Source: a virus
Strand: one strand, 5' to 3'
IMG/VR virus record: IMGVR_UViG_3300042866_000153
Span: 1-28,146 of that record
Length of the DNA: 28,146 nucleotides
Each line of letters opens with the position of its first letter. The stretch's first letter is position 1. The notes beneath the pieces were generated by a model. The model worked only from the letters and a program-made list of their open reading frames with translations, was not told the origin of the DNA and did not search any database. Position numbers and translations under genes: made by a program. This document shows, piece after piece, positions 16,160 to 22,471 of this stretch.

Positions 16160-17320
16160 TTAGCGTATGGCATACCTGCCAAAGTTAGGTCTGCTCAACT
16201 TGTTATACGTTGCATAGCGCAGCGCATCTATGGCGTGATTGAATGCATCTATGGGTTTGTTTAAGAGGTTGCCGTTCTTGTCCTCTACCCATTTGTAGTT
16301 CTGAAGTTCCTTGATTAGGTTGCTGCTTCGTGGTGTTACGAATAGTTTGTGCCGCTTTAGCACGTCAATACCCACTATGACGCTATCTGCGCCCTTCTGC
16401 GTGGGTTTCACGTTCCATCCCATACGATGCAGCTCCTCGATGCTTTTGGGTTCAGCAGAGTCAGCATATATCTCTGCCCTTCGGTCAAGGCCAAGTGAGG
16501 CAAGTACGTTGCTGATGTCGGGGTTGGTCATCCCCGTGCGGTAAATCAATTCATCCACATACAGATTGTCACCCGACTTATAGACCGCCACAAGTGCGGT
16601 AGGGTCATTGGTGTACCCAAAGTCCATCCCGTGACATAAGAGCGTGGCATCAGTTGGTATCTCTGCCTGCCCGTATTGGAAGATGGTGGCTCTGCTCATA
16701 CCACGTTCTCCGAGTCCGTAGATTCTCCAATAGTCATTGTCCGTATGTTGCAGCCTTTCTATCTCCTCAACGATTGAGGCATCCAAGAACGGATTATCAA
16801 GGTATGTGGATTGGATGTACGTTACGTCATCACGAGTCAGCAACTTGTCGTATATCCAATGGAACGCGTCTGAAGGGTTGTAGTCAACCCATATCTTGCC
16901 TGTGGTACGAATCAAGAGCTGAAAGAAATCCTCCCAAGTGAGTTCGTTTGCCTCGTTGCAGAATAGGTAGTCACGTCTTGCTCCCCGTTTCTTCTGCGGT
17001 TGGTCAAGGCTTATGAACTCAAAGAGGTTGCCATTCAACTCGTAGGTGTAGTCGCTCTTATTATGCCGTGCCTCATCGTAAAGATTGTTGGCATTTAGAA
17101 TCTCAAAGAAGTCACGATAGGCCGTCATCTTCAGAGACGGCAGAGACTTGCGGACAATGGAGTACACCTTGCCTCTATCCTCCATCGCCATCACGATGAG
17201 CATCTGCAAAAGCGAGTACGTCTTACCAGAACGGCTGCCGCCTTGATTGACTACTATCCGAGTTGGTGCGGTGTAGTTCTTCTCAAAGAGTTCACTACTC
17301 TTTAGGTTTAGCTCGGACAA
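16160..17320 (-). CDS. terL: Terminase large subunit
   Basis: A 386-residue packaging motor with a complete ATPase and nuclease. ATPase: Walker A GGSRSGKT at 27-34, Walker B YLFCNEA at 118-124 with catalytic Glu123, coupling-like SILSTYLDNPFL equivalent YIQSTYLDNPFL. RNase H-like nuclease: Asp233 in GMDFGYTND, Asp287 in IYADSAEPKSIEEL and Asp365 in HAIDALRYA. The layout is that of the PBSX/T4-like Terminase_6 group, short form. The start is TTG at 17320, overlapping the TerS stop by 26 nt; no ATG lies before Walker A. It cuts concatemers and drives DNA into the prohead. Confidence 0.95.
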   Translation of the reverse strand: MSELNLKSSELFEKNYTAPTRIVVNQGGSRSGKTYSLLQMLIVMAMEDRGKVYSIVRKSLPSLKMTAYRDFFEILNANNLYDEARHNKSDYTYELNGNLFEFISLDQPQKKRGARRDYLFCNEANELTWEDFFQLLIRTTGKIWVDYNPSDAFHWIYDKLLTRDDVTYIQSTYLDNPFLDASIVEEIERLQHTDNDYWRIYGLGERGMSRATIFQYGQAEIPTDATLLCHGMDFGYTNDPTALVAVYKSGDNLYVDELIYRTGMTNPDISNVLASLGLDRRAEIYADSAEPKSIEELHRMGWNVKPTQKGADSVIVGIDVLKRHKLFVTPRSSNLIKELQNYKWVEDKNGNLLNKPIDAFNHAIDALRYATYNKLSRPNFGRYAIR

Positions 17321-17594
17321 TCTCTACTTTGATTTTGGTTAGCTCATCCGATACCTCGTGTGAGTTCTCCACCCTTGCGAGTTTGGGAGTCGTATACTCT
17401 GCCATCTTGTTCAATAGGTCAAGTGCGCCCTTCGGGTCATCAGCAGCAACTTGCGTGAGCCATAAGGTCATGTTCTCAAGGTTGGCTTCTATGAGGGTTT
17501 GGAATGCCTCTCGTATTTTGTTGGTGGTCTTGTTTGGTGTTCCGCTTGGCCTTCCTGTGTTGCCTGCTATGAACCTGCCTTTGTCATCTTTCAT
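17295..17594 (-). CDS. Terminase small subunit-like protein
   Basis: A 99-residue protein directly before TerL, overlapping it by 26 nt. N-terminal GRFIAGNTGRPSGTPNKTTN is the basic G-R-P-x-G-(T/S)-P-N-K motif found at the start of many small terminase-like DNA-binding proteins (DUF5681 type), followed by helices REAFQTLIEANLENMTLWL and ALDLLNKMAEYTTPKLARVE. Position, length and motif agree with a TerS that recognises the packaging site. The family is not perfectly diagnostic, so a general DNA-binding helper is possible. Confidence 0.7.
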   Translation of the reverse strand: MKDDKGRFIAGNTGRPSGTPNKTTNKIREAFQTLIEANLENMTLWLTQVAADDPKGALDLLNKMAEYTTPKLARVENSHEVSDELTKIKVEIVRAKPKE

Positions 17595-17626: not shown

Positions 17627-17902
17627 CTAAATAACCCTTTTTGCGAGGTGGTGATCGTGTGTTGCGGTTAGCATCTCTTTGTGCTGCTTCTTATCCCCAT
17701 ATTCTGTATGGCAATTACGGCATAGTGCCATCAGGTTTTCTATGGTATCAGCAATTTTGCTTCCACCCATTCCGCGTGATTCTATGTGGTGAATGTCTTG
17801 CGCTTGGGCTTGACATACCTCGCAGGGTATGAAGTCAGTTGTGGAGTAGCCCATCCCTTTGAGATAGACCTTTGTGTGGTTCTTCACCTTTGGTAAATCC
17901 AA
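17627..17902 (-). CDS. HNH endonuclease
   Basis: A 91-residue protein with the full HNH layout: Cys27-x2-Cys30, the DIHHIESRG block with His38/His39, Asn57 in ENLMALC and Cys61-x2-Cys64-His65. The four Cys form the structural zinc site and the HH/N/H residues the metal-dependent active site. Located 32 bp before TerS, where HNH proteins often work with the terminase in cutting cos ends. Start is TTG at 17902, or GTG five codons later. It overlaps the methyltransferase gene by 19 nt. A free-standing homing-type nuclease is the alternative. Confidence 0.85.
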   Translation of the reverse strand: MDLPKVKNHTKVYLKGMGYSTTDFIPCEVCQAQAQDIHHIESRGMGGSKIADTIENLMALCRNCHTEYGDKKQHKEMLTATHDHHLAKRVI

Positions 17903-18411
17903 CAGTCATCAATGAACCAAGCACGGGGGAGTAGTTCATCAACGGCTTGGATTACTCCCTTCCAATTCTCGTGGTAGTCATCTCCTGCGATAAAGCCTCC
18001 CTTCTTTACTTTAGGTAGCCATAGCTTAATATCCTCCTTTACGGCCTCATAGGTATGGGTTAGGTCTATGAATACCACGTCTAACGATTCGTTGGCAAAC
18101 TTCTTTGATGCTGCTTTGGATGTTGCTTTGATTGCCTTGTACTTGCGGTCTCCCATATTCTCCACAAAGAGATTGTAGATATTCTGTTCCGTTGCAAGTT
18201 TATGTGTGGTCGTGAGTTCGTTTGGCGAACCCTTCCAAGTATCTATGATTGTGATGTTTTGGTATGTTGCTTTGTCGCATAGGTAGGCTGATGACTTACC
18301 GAGCCAAGCACCCAGTTCAACGAAGGTGCCGTCTTCGGGCATATTGGCAAGGAGGTAGTCGTATGCTGCTTGGTGGTTGAACCACCCGTCTATTTGTTTG
18401 CTCGTTTTCAT
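17884..18411 (-). CDS. Class I SAM-dependent methyltransferase
   Basis: A 175-residue protein of the Methyltransf_24 type. Motif I is VELGAWLGKSS at 31-41, motif II acidic residue in ITIIDTW, and a motif IV-like SLDVVFIDLTHTYEAVKEDI followed by LPKVKKGGFIAGDDY, where the IDxxHxYExVxxD layout is characteristic of sugar or small-molecule O-methyltransferases with a metal site. The start ATG 18411 is ATGA-coupled to the glycosyltransferase upstream; a longer start at 18432 would overlap it. Coupling with two glycosyltransferases suggests it methylates the sugar product, by inference. Confidence 0.8.
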   Translation of the reverse strand: MKTSKQIDGWFNHQAAYDYLLANMPEDGTFVELGAWLGKSSAYLCDKATYQNITIIDTWKGSPNELTTTHKLATEQNIYNLFVENMGDRKYKAIKATSKAASKKFANESLDVVFIDLTHTYEAVKEDIKLWLPKVKKGGFIAGDDYHENWKGVIQAVDELLPRAWFIDDCWIYQR

Positions 18412-18935
18412 TTTAGGGCGTTGTAGTAGCAAAGGTACTGCTCTACGCAGATAAGTGTACCGAGCCTTGCGGCTTCACTTGCAAAGATACCATCGGCCTC
18501 ATAGGACATTTCAAAGCGTAGGTTGGGCAGGTCGTGTGGCTTGAACATATAGCAGGCGGTATCTATGTTTCCGACTTGTGGTTGGTCGGTAGGGCGTAGC
18601 CTACCTATTTGCCCCCACGTTACGATTGAGCAATCAAGAGAATGCAAGTTGCTCCACTCCTCAAGGAACTTTGGATGCAGCACATTGTCATCATCCAGAT
18701 AGTAAACCCAATCCTCTTTGGTAAAAGATTCAGCATACAAGTCAAGGAACTCATTGCGTAGGGGATTGCCCATATCCCCCGTGCGTGTGGAGTAATGTGT
18801 GATTGATGCGCCTGTTGCTCCCTTGAAGTCGGTAGCAGCATCCATCATGACAACCCACGTTGCATAGGCAGGGATATGTTGTTTTAGCCTAACGAGGTTA
18901 TGAGGTCGTGAGCAGGGCGTGACTATGTAAAGCAT
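18408..18935 (-). CDS. GT-A-like glycosyltransferase
   Basis: A 175-residue protein with a Rossmann-like start (MLYIVTPCSRPHNLVRLKQH) as in small family 2-like enzymes, and the metal-binding acidic motif VYYLDDDNVLHPKF at 78-90 (DDD 81-83). The C-terminal FEMSYEADGIFASEAAR may supply the catalytic base. It is short for GT-A enzymes, a minimal single domain. It overlaps the preceding glycosyltransferase by 13 nt and the methyltransferase by 4 nt. The acceptor is unknown: virion protein, modified base or host envelope sugar. Confidence 0.75.
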   Translation of the reverse strand: MLYIVTPCSRPHNLVRLKQHIPAYATWVVMMDAATDFKGATGASITHYSTRTGDMGNPLRNEFLDLYAESFTKEDWVYYLDDDNVLHPKFLEEWSNLHSLDCSIVTWGQIGRLRPTDQPQVGNIDTACYMFKPHDLPNLRFEMSYEADGIFASEAARLGTLICVEQYLCYYNALK

Positions 18936-19861
18936 CGTAGTTCGTTTATCTTATCCATCGTGAATTCCTGCACATACTCGTATAACGATTCCGTTAGGTC
19001 AGCAACTTGGTTGGGGTTTTCTTTTAGCCTCTTGATTGCTCCTGCCCATTCGCTTGGGTGCTTGATGGCAATGCAGTTCTCTTTGGTGATGTATGGTGAA
19101 TAGGGTTGTGTGTTGCTCACTATCAAAGCGCATTTGCTAAAGCCTGCCTCAAGCATCTTTAGGTGCGACTTGCACTTTGCAAACTCTGATGTTGTTAAAG
19201 GCACAAGGCTCACGTCAAAGTAATTGTAGAGCTTGTGGTAGTGCGTTGGTGGCATAGTGGGCAGCCTATGGCTTGCCTTCATAATGTCGGGATAGCCATC
19301 TACCTCTGCCACATACCCTTGATAGCCTTCAAGGTTAATTGTGGAATCCTTTACGTCTGCTGCGTGGTGATTGCCTCCGATATACCCAAAGCGTACTTCT
19401 TCGCTTGGCTTTCTCTCTACCTGCCACGTTGCTACGCTAATTGCATTGGGGATGATTCGGATGTTGGTATTGTACTTCTTGACCTTTGAGGCAAGGTGCT
19501 TGTTTGTCACCCATACCTCATCTGCTGCTTTCATAGAGCGCACGATGCGAGTTCTCATCCGCTCAACGTACAATCCCTGCAAAGGATGCGTAGGAGGCAG
19601 AACCCACCAGTCATCATTGTCAACGATTAACTTGATGCCTTCCTTGCGGCAGAGTTTCACGAAGTCATCAAACGGCTCAACAGGGAATGCACGGCTTGCA
19701 AAGATGTGAGTGACTTTAGGCCACATTTCGGGGTCTATGTCGGTAATCTTCTCAATGAAAAAGACATCTACATCCTTGTGGCATATCAAGGGTGCAAATG
19801 TCCTGTGGTGAGAGACTCCAGAGTTCTGCTTGTGGAAGGCAAGCACAAAGGGTCTAATCAT
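18923..19861 (-). CDS. GT-B-like (family 4-type) glycosyltransferase
   Basis: A 312-residue protein. The first half contains short alternating strands with FAPLICHKDVDVFFIEK, THIFASRAFP and LIVDNDDWWVLPPTHPL; the second has IIPNAISVATW, RFGYIGGNHHAADV, SLVPLTTSEFAKCKSHLKML and EAGFSKCALIVSNTQPY, matching the family 4 donor-site region where a Glu in K-x-LEA contacts the nucleotide sugar. Start ATGA-coupled to the upstream small gene. No membrane segment. It is the first enzyme of a three-gene sugar cassette inserted between the exonuclease and terminase genes. Confidence 0.75.
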   Translation of the reverse strand: MIRPFVLAFHKQNSGVSHHRTFAPLICHKDVDVFFIEKITDIDPEMWPKVTHIFASRAFPVEPFDDFVKLCRKEGIKLIVDNDDWWVLPPTHPLQGLYVERMRTRIVRSMKAADEVWVTNKHLASKVKKYNTNIRIIPNAISVATWQVERKPSEEVRFGYIGGNHHAADVKDSTINLEGYQGYVAEVDGYPDIMKASHRLPTMPPTHYHKLYNYFDVSLVPLTTSEFAKCKSHLKMLEAGFSKCALIVSNTQPYSPYITKENCIAIKHPSEWAGAIKRLKENPNQVADLTESLYEYVQEFTMDKINELRCFT

Positions 19862-20049
19862 AAATTAGCCTCTTGGTCTTTGAACCATTGCGACATCGCT
19901 TTGCGGTCTAAATACTTTACCCACATCCGAGCAGCTACTGCTCTGCGTTGGGGCTTGAAGGGGTAGGTGCTACGGAGCTGCGCCATAGCAATCCTCATAA
20001 ACTGATCTTGCATTATTCTTTGGTATTTGAGGTGTTGCAAAAAATGCAA
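19858..20049 (-). CDS. Small basic protein upstream of the glycosyltransferases
   Basis: Two starts are possible. TTG at 20049 gives 63 residues and stands right behind a copy of the AAACCAATC element, as other starts here do. ATG at 20013 gives 51 residues (MQDQFMRIAMAQLRSTYPFK...). The core is basic and helical (PQRRAVAARMWVKYLDRKAM, SQWFKDQEANL). The stop is ATGA-coupled to the GT-B gene. No family recognised. A hairpin at 20034-20050 covers the TTG, so it may control initiation. Confidence 0.6.
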   Translation of the reverse strand: MHFLQHLKYQRIMQDQFMRIAMAQLRSTYPFKPQRRAVAARMWVKYLDRKAMSQWFKDQEANL

Positions 20050-20063: not shown

Positions 20064-20216
20064 TTAAAGTTTAGTGTTCCAATAGTATTCGCATTGGCCG
20101 TGCTTGACAGGTATGCCAACAAAGAACGATTGGTACATATCCGTAGGTGCGGTGAATCGATAGCAGGTTTCTTTTAGAGGGCAACCTTCTCCTGTGCATT
20201 TGGTGATGTCGGTCAT
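20064..20216 (-). CDS. 50-residue Cys-rich protein
   Basis: Starts at ATG 20216-20214, ATGA-coupled to the exonuclease stop, and ends with TAA at 20064-20066. The sequence MTDITKCTGEGCPLKETCYR has C-x4-C-x5-C, a fourth Cys lies near the end (KHGQCEYYW) and RFTAPTDMYQSFFVGIPV is in between. I recall this C..CP-x-(K)-x2-CYR-F-x-AP pattern in short proteins common in Bacteroidota phages, annotated as hypothetical. Four Cys suggest a zinc knuckle. Coupling to the exonuclease hints at a recombination or replication helper, without other evidence. Confidence 0.8.
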   Translation of the reverse strand: MTDITKCTGEGCPLKETCYRFTAPTDMYQSFFVGIPVKHGQCEYYWNTKL

Positions 20217-20983
20217 AACGTGCCTACTATTGTGTACGAATCCAAGTCCTCACCCAAGATAAAGAACTGCTTGTACAATTCTATTGCCTCCATAGTCTTG
20301 CGCTCACCCTCTGCCACAAACTCGGGACTCACCGAGTAAATGCCTATGTCAAGGCTTGCCTTGTCAATAGCGACAAAGAAGAACTTATCAATAGGAACTC
20401 CGAATAATCGGGTGTAGATAAACGCCTGCACATCGTAGCCGTACTTCTTTGCAGAGTAGGGGAATGCCCGTAGGTCGGTTGTTGTTTTCAAATCAGCCAA
20501 GAATCCTTCAGCATAGATGTCAGCCTTCGCCCTAAAGGGCAGGCCGCCAATCATACCAATCTTTGGCACCTCAAACTCGCAGCCAGTTAGCAGGCCAAGC
20601 ACGTTCTCGTTGCGCAGGAGCGCATCAGATATTCGTTGCGCCTCGTTGTACTCTTTACGGGTGCATAGGTTACGCTTGCCCTTTGCATCCTGCCACGCCT
20701 TTGCGTTCTTACTCTGCACCTCAATGACCTCGTAGTCCGCTACTCGGTGCGGCTCAAGAGCCATCAAGTGTACCAAGCGACCGACTGCAAACGCATCGGA
20801 TTCATCGCTGCCGTACTTGGTGACGTAGTGGTATGTCTTTGGTGATGTCAGAAGCAGTTTACACGCAGAGGAGGATAGGGCGTTCTTGCCCAGTACTCCG
20901 TAGTAAAAGTCATCATCTTGCATCTTTTCAAGGACTGTCTCCATGTCCCAAGTGCTTCCGTCAAGTAGTTCTATGATTTTCAT
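20213..20983 (-). CDS. RecE/lambda-type PD-(D/E)XK exonuclease
   Basis: A 256-residue protein of the phage exonuclease VIII C-terminal (DUF3799-like) type. Motifs: LSSSACKLLLTSPKTYHYVT near the start, GRLVHLMALEP at 68-78, RAKADIY at 151-157 (Asp155), LADLKTTTD at 162-170 (Asp164, Lys166) and the helix YDVQAFIYTRLF with Gln186 and Tyr190, the full PD-(D/E)XK plus Q-x3-Y set. It degrades one strand of double-stranded DNA to give 3' tails for annealing. Start ATG 20983 was chosen since an AAAACCAATC element stands 1 base before it; a longer reading would run into the methyltransferase gene. No RecT/Beta-like annealase is visible in the window. Confidence 0.85.
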   Translation of the reverse strand: MKIIELLDGSTWDMETVLEKMQDDDFYYGVLGKNALSSSACKLLLTSPKTYHYVTKYGSDESDAFAVGRLVHLMALEPHRVADYEVIEVQSKNAKAWQDAKGKRNLCTRKEYNEAQRISDALLRNENVLGLLTGCEFEVPKIGMIGGLPFRAKADIYAEGFLADLKTTTDLRAFPYSAKKYGYDVQAFIYTRLFGVPIDKFFFVAIDKASLDIGIYSVSPEFVAEGERKTMEAIELYKQFFILGEDLDSYTIVGTL

Positions 20984-20984
20984 A

Positions 20985-20995
20985 AGATTGGTTTT
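20985..20995 (-). promoter_or_regulatory. AAAACCAATCA-type leader element, copy 2
   Basis: AAAACCAATCT on the minus strand, followed by T and the ATG of the exonuclease. It lies in the 13-bp gap after the methyltransferase stop and decides the exonuclease start. Confidence 0.65.
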
Positions 20996-20996
20996 G

Positions 20997-22307
20997 TTAA
21001 TTAAATAAAGGTAAACATTTTTTAGCGACTGCTGCAACCACGTCAACTGTTACTGCGTTACCGCATTGCTTGTATCGTTGGGAGTTGCTCATAGGCTTTA
21101 CTTCTCCATCGTAGTTGCCATAGGCCGTATGCTGATCTGGGAATCCCTGTAAGCGTTCACATTCAATAGGTGTTAGCCTACGGATTCGGTAGCCATCAAA
21201 TAGGCTGATGCCGTTGTGTTCGGGTTGCGTTAGTGTAGGTGATTCATCACGCAGGGTTTTGTTGTACAAGTCCATTGCCTTAACCTCTCCCTCCCTAAAG
21301 TCATTCCGTCTGATGGTCTCGTTGACTTTCTCGTAGGTATAATTTGGTTGAACTACTGCTTGATTGCAACTCGTTTCAAGTGTCTGCGCCTTCTGCTTTC
21401 CTACACGGCCTCTGCGAGTTTCGCTTTGGGTGCGAGAAGTGTAAATGGTATCACCGCTTGTTGCTTCTTCGTACCCTAAACTTGTGGCTGACTTTACTCG
21501 TAGAATCAAATCACTTTTACCTTGATTAAGAGCAGGAACAATACCATCAGCATCGTACACTCGGTCTTGCTGGTAGGGTTGAGTGCCGCTATTAGAATCA
21601 AGTCTAGTTCCGATTTGCTTGACCTGTACTTTTGTTGGGTCTTTGTAGCAGCAAGCACTCAACGTAGGGGCAATCCCAGCTTCGCCATAGATGAATCCTT
21701 GCTGACCGCCTGTACCACGATGACCTACTATTTCAACCCCGTGTTGTTCAGTATTTGATTTATTGTTTTCTGCGATAGGAAGTACTCCTCGCCAATCTCC
21801 TCCTGTGGTTGTAGAATATCCGACAAGGTATATCCGCTCTCTATTTTGGGGTAGAAACCAACTTGTATTAAGCAGTTGCCATTCAAGTCTATAACCCCCA
21901 ATGTCGGTAAAGGCTTGGATAATCGCCCAAAAGTCTGCGCCATCATTTGAGGAGAATGTCCCTTTAACATTTTCCCAGACAAATACACTTGGTCGGCATT
22001 CGCTAATAAGACGGATTGCTTCGAGGACAAGAGAACTTCTTTGTCCTTCCATCCCCTTTCGGTTTCCTGCCAATGAGAAATCTTGGCAAGGACTTCCAAA
22101 AGTGATGAGGTTGATTCTTGGAAGGTCTGCTCCTCGAACATTGGTAACTGAACCGACATAGGTTGAGGTTGGGAATTGATGTTTGTAAACTGCGATTGCG
22201 TGTTTGTCTATCTCCGAGAAGTAGGATGTTATTTCATATCCTGCTCGCTCAAAGCCTAAATGGAATCCACCTATCCCACTAAACAAATCAAGGTGGTTGA
22301 TCTTCAT
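20997..22307 (-). CDS. DNA (cytosine-5) methyltransferase
   Basis: A 436-residue enzyme with motif I DLFSGIGGFHLGFERAG at 7-23, motif IV GSPCQDFSLAGNRKG at 71-85 with catalytic Cys74, motif VI WENVKG at 111-116, motif VIII QNRERIYLVG at 154-163, a variable target recognition region from about 170 to 340 and motifs IX-X (RRLTPIECERLQGFPDQHT, QCGNAVTVDVVAAV) at the end. The start ATG 22307 is ATGA-coupled to the upstream gene. It adds 5-methylcytosine to phage DNA, likely to avoid host restriction. No restriction enzyme is adjacent. An internal 143-codon overlap in another frame is a shadow. Confidence 0.92.
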   Translation of the reverse strand: MKINHLDLFSGIGGFHLGFERAGYEITSYFSEIDKHAIAVYKHQFPTSTYVGSVTNVRGADLPRINLITFGSPCQDFSLAGNRKGMEGQRSSLVLEAIRLISECRPSVFVWENVKGTFSSNDGADFWAIIQAFTDIGGYRLEWQLLNTSWFLPQNRERIYLVGYSTTTGGDWRGVLPIAENNKSNTEQHGVEIVGHRGTGGQQGFIYGEAGIAPTLSACCYKDPTKVQVKQIGTRLDSNSGTQPYQQDRVYDADGIVPALNQGKSDLILRVKSATSLGYEEATSGDTIYTSRTQSETRRGRVGKQKAQTLETSCNQAVVQPNYTYEKVNETIRRNDFREGEVKAMDLYNKTLRDESPTLTQPEHNGISLFDGYRIRRLTPIECERLQGFPDQHTAYGNYDGEVKPMSNSQRYKQCGNAVTVDVVAAVAKKCLPLFN

Positions 22308-22471
22308 TTGTTGAATGTTGCTTCGTGCCATTGCTCAAATGGAACACTAACTGATGAATCGCGGTAAGCGTAACGCAAGTGTATGGTCTCAATAGTTTCA
22401 ATGTCTTTTAGGATTGATTCTGACAGGCCACAGGTCTTGAGGTCTCGGAGTATTTGGGAGATAGTTTGCAT
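22304..22471 (-). CDS. 55-residue protein of unknown function
   Basis: Starts at ATG 22471, five bases after an AAAACCAATC element; upstream in-frame starts would run into the preceding gene. Starts MQTISQILRDLKTCGLSESI, helical, then LKDIETIETIHLRYAYRDSS and WHEATFNK. The stop is ATGA-coupled to the methyltransferase. No family recognised; small regulatory partner possible only by position. Confidence 0.7.
   Translation of the reverse strand: MQTISQILRDLKTCGLSESILKDIETIETIHLRYAYRDSSVSVPFEQWHEATFNK

Follow-up and report, generated by a model that had tools for sequence, protein, structure and literature searches.

In mycobacteriophages of the Corndog group, an O-methyltransferase and two glycosyltransferases (GTs) are encoded between the portal and the protease/capsid genes (PMC4351075; Firecracker map). 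Two papers that cite Freeman 2023 (PMC12363180, PMC12619734) report that capsid and tail-tube proteins of mycobacteriophages are glycosylated. In these phages, the capsid and tail glycans reportedly shield the particle. Phage DNA hypermodification systems with GTs are also known, of the TET and TAGT types, the latter being described in PMC13390438. Here, we analyzed a 28,146-base viral record from lake water (IMG/VR record IMGVR_UViG_3300042866_000153, hereafter the window), in which a GT-B glycosyltransferase gene, a short GT-A-like glycosyltransferase gene and a methyltransferase (MT) gene overlap one another, follow a small basic gene, and lie between exonuclease and terminase genes. This layout, recognized in a preliminary description of the locus, holds with small corrections. 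Our results indicate that the three enzyme genes very probably form a glycan-assembly set, and we lean slightly toward a virion protein as its acceptor.

The cassette resembles the Corndog/Firecracker cluster in its general organization: there, an O-methyltransferase and at least two GTs are adjacent and near head genes, and here the GTs and the MT are linked to late genes, as in virion glycosylation cassettes of the Corndog/Che8 type. It differs in including one GT-B and in lying upstream of the terminase, whereas the Corndog set lies between portal and protease. The profiles of GT-A and GT-B gave hhalign probabilities of at most 1% with Firecracker gp34-36, for which hmmsearch found no homology either, and the similarity between the Firecracker O-methyltransferase and the window MT was marginal (hhalign probability of 28%). 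By analogy, the cassette may work like the Corndog cluster, but it would not be a member of it by descent, because the enzymes are not homologous.

The case for a single module comes from the related loci. Scans anchored on the terminase large subunit (TerL), the exonuclease, TET, GT-B, GT-A and MT gathered several hundred of them, in a non-random sample whose counts are inflated by near-identical phages. Among these, 115 loci are distinct in the exonuclease gene and cover the whole region from this gene through the one that follows TerL: 65 encode GT-B, GT-A and MT, 30 encode GT-B and GT-A, and 20 encode none of them, all 20 stemming from the TET-anchored scan. A lone GT-B, a lone GT-A, or an MT without both transferases was found in none of the 115. 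Furthermore, all contigs from the TerL-anchored scan with enough upstream sequence contain the cassette, which there adjoins the genes for an HNH endonuclease, the terminase small subunit (TerS) and TerL. The genes occur in at least five orders (B-A-M, A-M-B, A-B-M, A-B and A...TerL-B, with A, B and M for GT-A, GT-B and MT), the variants with their neighbors being GT-B/GT-A/MT/HNH, HNH/GT-A/MT/GT-B, HNH/GT-A/GT-B/MT and GT-A...TerL/GT-B. In this last arrangement, seen in one clade, GT-B comes directly after TerL and ahead of the virion genes. Given this reshuffling, the linkage is not explained by inherited order alone.

The MT is the variable component, with at least 7 state changes on well-supported branches and a minimum of 12 on the best tree. 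The nesting of the GT-B and GT-A pair within the set of three fits a pathway in which methylation would come last and be optional. The claim that the two transferases and the MT form one set is thus supported by the constant pairing in spanning loci, the reshuffled orders, the nested MT, and one fusion of GT-A with an MT (see below). The methylated disaccharide proposed with it is a product that we can only infer; methylation itself appears to be optional, because 30 of the 95 cassette loci lack the MT. The genes also bear the marks of selection for function: distinct full-length copies from relatives have no internal stops (79 GT-B, 82 GT-A and 78 MT), and their median ratios of nonsynonymous to synonymous substitution rates (dN/dS) are 0.063 for GT-B, 0.119 for GT-A and 0.130 for MT. 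Of 232 near-relative loci, all share the GT-A/MT junction, and all but one (231) share that of GT-B and GT-A. The sole break is a gene for an N6/N4 DNA methylase placed exactly between GT-B and GT-A (L253:3312-3941, where L numbers denote loci).

The family assignments differ in how directly they can be made. The MT matches Methyltransf_24 (PF13578) with an E value of 1.1e-19 (71.7 bits for a cut-off of 26.3), and TylF weakly (E value of 4.8e-4), missing the cut-off of the latter. It shares the Methyltransf_24 core with the group of macrocin O-methyltransferase (TylF) and the CmcI-rhamnosyl O-methyltransferases but is much shorter (175 amino acids, aa). The best start of its gene is the ATG at 18411, the alternative TTG at 18432 giving 182 aa. 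The window GT-A protein alone did not match GT2 models significantly (E values of 0.03-0.09). Yet in a set of 13 diverse relatives, 7 proteins have a Glycos_transf_2 match (PF00535; best E value of 4.7e-6), the family profile has a β-1,3-GlcNAc transferase as its best match in the PDB (E value of 0.003), and the window protein and its relatives, up to a bacterial homolog, share an unvarying LDDDN motif. Hence, the predicted family of GT-A holds through its relatives, and not by the window protein itself. A tblastn search with GT-A in 50,697 phage records gave no match, and NCBIfam had no match for the cassette proteins.

GT-B is, by family, a predicted GT4-like enzyme. It matches PHROG 7162, annotated as "glycosyltransferase," over residues 10-309 (E value of 1.8e-45). 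Among relatives both half-domains were matched (PF13524, 1.9e-6; PF13439, 1.3e-3), whereas the window protein alone is under the Pfam cut-off (17.5 versus 25 bits); searching PDB sequences with it returned only noise. GT-B is a true homolog of gp164 and gp163 of the gp163-gp166 cluster of phi92 and Stephanstirmvirinae (tblastn, 26% identity, E value of 6e-22; hhalign, 98-99% with the near-relative profile). There, too, GT-B genes adjoin GT-A-like genes in an overlapping array. In contrast with the window, the phi92 cluster has no methyltransferase, and its GT-A genes, which we had considered as homologs of the window GT-A, were rejected as such for lack of detectable homology. The literature that we searched assigns no function to gp163-gp166.

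A direct tie between GT-A and MT was found in a bacterium. Among 297 genomes from the phylum of a Flavobacteriaceae metagenome-assembled genome (MAG), GT-A had one strong match: a 396-aa Bacteroidota protein with GT-A in its N-terminal half (E value of 3e-62) and Methyltransf_24/RMNT_CmcI in its C-terminal half (3.5e-14 for Methyltransf_24; 5.9e-8 for RMNT_CmcI, above the cut-off). Its gene neighbors encode eCIS_core proteins, an AAA+ ATPase, and sheath, tail-tube and baseplate proteins, i.e., an extracellular contractile injection system (eCIS), a machine derived from phage tails. As judged from these sequences, the fusion ties GT-A to MT directly and sets both beside tail proteins. A second protein of the cluster fuses a GT2 with Methyltransf_24, and the locus has a further GT2 (L544:9030-10220 and L544:6042-8270); it is possible that this injection system is glycosylated. 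One could go further and propose a portable module of phage-tail glycosylation, in which the GT-B and GT-A pair with an optional O-methyl cap would be a core trait of a large group of uncultured aquatic Bacteroidota phages, the fused GT-A/MT half would also serve the eCIS, and the tail-like particles of the phylum would routinely be glycosylated. We regard this broader proposal as tentative and rather doubtful.

What would the cassette do in the phage? GT-B would attach the first sugar to the acceptor, the small GT-A enzyme would add the second one, and the TylF/CmcI-like MT would O-methylate a sugar hydroxyl as an optional cap. The sugar nucleotides would be supplied by the host, because no epimerase or nucleotidyltransferase family was found in 17 phage records including the window; UDP-galactopyranose mutase is present in two other relatives. 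The acceptor would most likely be a tail or head protein, giving a glycosylated particle, and the glycan could act in receptor interplay or in shielding. We favor a virion target because the set is predicted to be soluble and lies beside the packaging genes, because in one clade its GT-B is preceded by TerL and followed by the virion genes, and because its GT-A/MT half is found beside a tail-derived machine. If this is true, the decoration of their own particles with a small glycan, optionally methylated, is a core trait of an abundant but uncultured group of phages from lakes and the sea; such a trait is better known from mycobacteriophages. It would matter for the encounter between phages and host surfaces rich in glycans.

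Several observations weigh against such a role and call for caution. In most relatives the cassette lies between the recombination and packaging genes, outside the confirmed virion genes. In five families of late genes downstream, phages with and without the cassette showed no clear difference in Ser/Thr content, and a search for cassette-linked Ser/Thr-rich virion tails gave no clear signal, so that the acceptor could not be picked from sequence. The fusion is a single case in several hundred Bacteroidota genomes, wider searches having found no further fusions of this GT-A with an MT. The MT matches a PHROG labeled "DNA methyltransferase," which is a loose label. Finally, the AlphaFold (AF2) models, made from shallow alignments, have low confidence, with a mean predicted local distance difference test score (pLDDT) of 48.3 for GT-B, where only the N-terminal half is partly confident, and of 36.9 for GT-A.

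DNA is the alternative acceptor that the genomic context brings to mind. The GTs and the MT would then assemble a sugar on modified cytosines in the DNA of the phage, allowing it to evade restriction. A C5-cytosine methylase is encoded upstream in the window, an element missing from the preliminary description; it overlaps the start of the exonuclease gene and is optional among relatives. In addition, HNH and TerS are separated in relatives with an alternative terminase by a ParB-like gene and a slot whose content is swapped, so that TET, TAGT, Mom, N6-methylase and ParB genes are found 1-3 genes downstream of the cassette. The slot, which follows the ParB_N gene (L123:7871-9480; L056:3273-4949; L018:8782-10804; L063:7693-8421; L182:6809-8023), holds a TET/JBP dioxygenase with a TAGT-like GT or with another, 260-aa GT, TAGT with UDP-galactopyranose mutase, Mom, an ABC/GNAT gene, or fusions of ParB and N6-methylase. 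These variants form a natural series in which phage base modifications could be tested. In the contigs of L147 and L132, a thymidylate synthase (TS)-family gene and then a MazG-like gene replace the C5-methylase just upstream of the exonuclease (L147:2183-3476). This TS-family gene is short and under the TS equivalog cut-offs; the pair could possibly act in the synthesis of a modified nucleotide.

The preliminary description had discounted DNA on the grounds that genes for base synthesis are missing from the window. They are indeed missing: Tet_JBP had no match among the window proteins scanned and the TS family none in the window, leaving no recognized source of the hydroxylated base that DNA glycosylation of the T4 or TET/TAGT type needs, and genes of the dCMP-hydroxymethylase type and for nucleotide sugars are absent. 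This absence extends beyond the window, such genes being almost lacking in 16 long relatives (a TS-family gene in 2 of the 16). The argument is nevertheless weaker than it seemed, because close relatives encode TET/JBP, TAGT, Mom and further base modifiers at a distance of a few genes. Its outcome is supported by other data. The base-modification class is scattered over the GT-A tree as if by chance, with 61 changes versus a mean of 62.0 for shuffled labels, no base modifier was recognized in 26 of the 95 cassette loci, and 20 TET loci have no cassette. Moreover, the TET slots bring their own transferases, TAGT and the 260-aa GT, which have no detectable homology with the cassette GT-A and GT-B, and PF20691 (TAGT) matched none of the cassette proteins. 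When MT was compared with base-modification genes one at a time, too few of the independent pairs were informative.

The TET/TAGT hypermodification systems thus share phage genomes with the cassette and follow it at a few genes' distance, together with C5-methylases, ParB-like proteins and transferases, but they are separate genes, gained or lost independently of it. Because the modifier class is independent of the cassette, each occurs without the other, and the TET-slot GTs are not detectably related to those of the cassette, the cassette and the base modification appear to be two separate systems of the same phages. DNA is probably not the substrate of the cassette, and its hypermodification by these enzymes seems unlikely to us, even if they may take part in some unrecognized base chemistry. 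More generally, a "glycosyltransferase" beside DNA-modification genes need not mean DNA glycosylation; the two look separable here.

The nature of the host raises another alternative. Bacteroidota are rich in surface glycans. The portal protein shares 65% identity with its counterpart on a phage contig from a Flavobacteriaceae MAG, and 39% with that of Nonlabens phage P12024S, so that the host is probably a flavobacterium-like member of this phylum. Since phages encode transferases that modify host glycans, the enzymes could alter the capsule, O-antigen or S-layer to shift receptors or to exclude other phages. The gtr cassettes of serotype conversion have a membrane flippase and a polytopic transferase, in contrast to the window cassette, which has neither: no membrane segment was found in any of its proteins (maximum 19-residue Kyte-Doolittle mean of at most 0.90). 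The envelope decoration considered in the preliminary description is accordingly less supported. Further points against it are the fixed position beside the packaging genes and the absence of a recognized integrase or lysogeny gene in the window scans. In two scans of GTDB contigs, the cassette was seen in no prophage, and a single related phage contig came up, the one in the Flavobacteriaceae MAG. We give a change of the host surface a small probability.

The functions of short phage GT-A proteins and of Methyltransf_24 enzymes vary, and those of the cassette could instead act on nucleotide sugars, small metabolites or tRNA, or inactivate host proteins. Three large-phage contigs (L502, L503 and L509), where GT-A has no GT-B within 8 kb, are compatible with such roles. 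In the phage group studied here, the pairing with GT-B, the nested MT and the strong purifying selection on all three genes speak against them, and we deem them quite improbable. A glycan on the virion hence remains the reading that we prefer.

The features of the locus are given in Table 1. The cassette and its flanking landmarks are all on the minus strand and are transcribed in the order C5-cytosine methylase, RecE-like exonuclease, a 50-aa gene, small basic gene, GT-B, GT-A-like, MT, HNH, TerS-like, TerL. The overlaps are of 4 nucleotides (nt) between the small gene and GT-B, 13 nt between GT-B and GT-A, 4 nt between GT-A and MT (ATGA), and 19 nt between MT and HNH.

Table 1. Positions of the cassette and its neighbors in the window (SAM, S-adenosylmethionine)
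Feature	Positions	Strand	Remarks
TerL (terminase large subunit)	16160-17320	-	Flanking landmark, family match
TerS-like terminase small subunit (DUF5681)	17295-17594	-	Flanking landmark, family match
HNH endonuclease	17627-17902	-	Packaging-associated neighbor; outside glycan set
Methyltransf_24/TylF-like SAM-dependent methyltransferase (MT)	17884-18411	-	175 aa from ATG
Short GT-A-like glycosyltransferase	18408-18935	-	175 aa; LDDDN (DXD-type) motif
GT-B glycosyltransferase	18923-19861	-	312 aa; PHROG 7162; phi92 gp164/gp163 homolog
Small basic protein	19858-20049	-	63 aa if TTG 20049 start; first gene of set
Inverted repeat TTGCA-TTTTT-TGCAA	20026-20041 (approximate)	-	Spacer before small gene
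RecE/ExoVIII-like exonuclease (DUF3799)	20213-21046	-	Flanking landmark, family match
C5-cytosine DNA methylase	20997-22331	-	Base modifier of this phage; relatives have it swapped or lack it

The small basic protein has an isoelectric point of 10.7. Library searches found no family match for it, and it was dropped as a candidate glycan enzyme for this reason. Its gene probably starts at the ATG at 20013 (MQDQFMRIAMA...), which is kept in relatives, rather than at the TTG at 20049. The "leader element" once ascribed to this gene exists as an inverted repeat in the spacer, but we dropped the idea of a fixed regulatory leader since, of 68 distinct relatives, only 31 have the repeat upstream. Some relatives have a 290-aa gene between MT and HNH (L253:4974-5846), which looks like a PAPS reductase by eye, without a Pfam match, and comes in two versions that are about 53% alike. 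Finally, the terminase genes (window 16160-17594) belong to one of two types of TerS/TerL modules that are exchanged between otherwise close phages, the two TerL types differing in their N-terminal halves and being nearly the same in their C-terminal halves.

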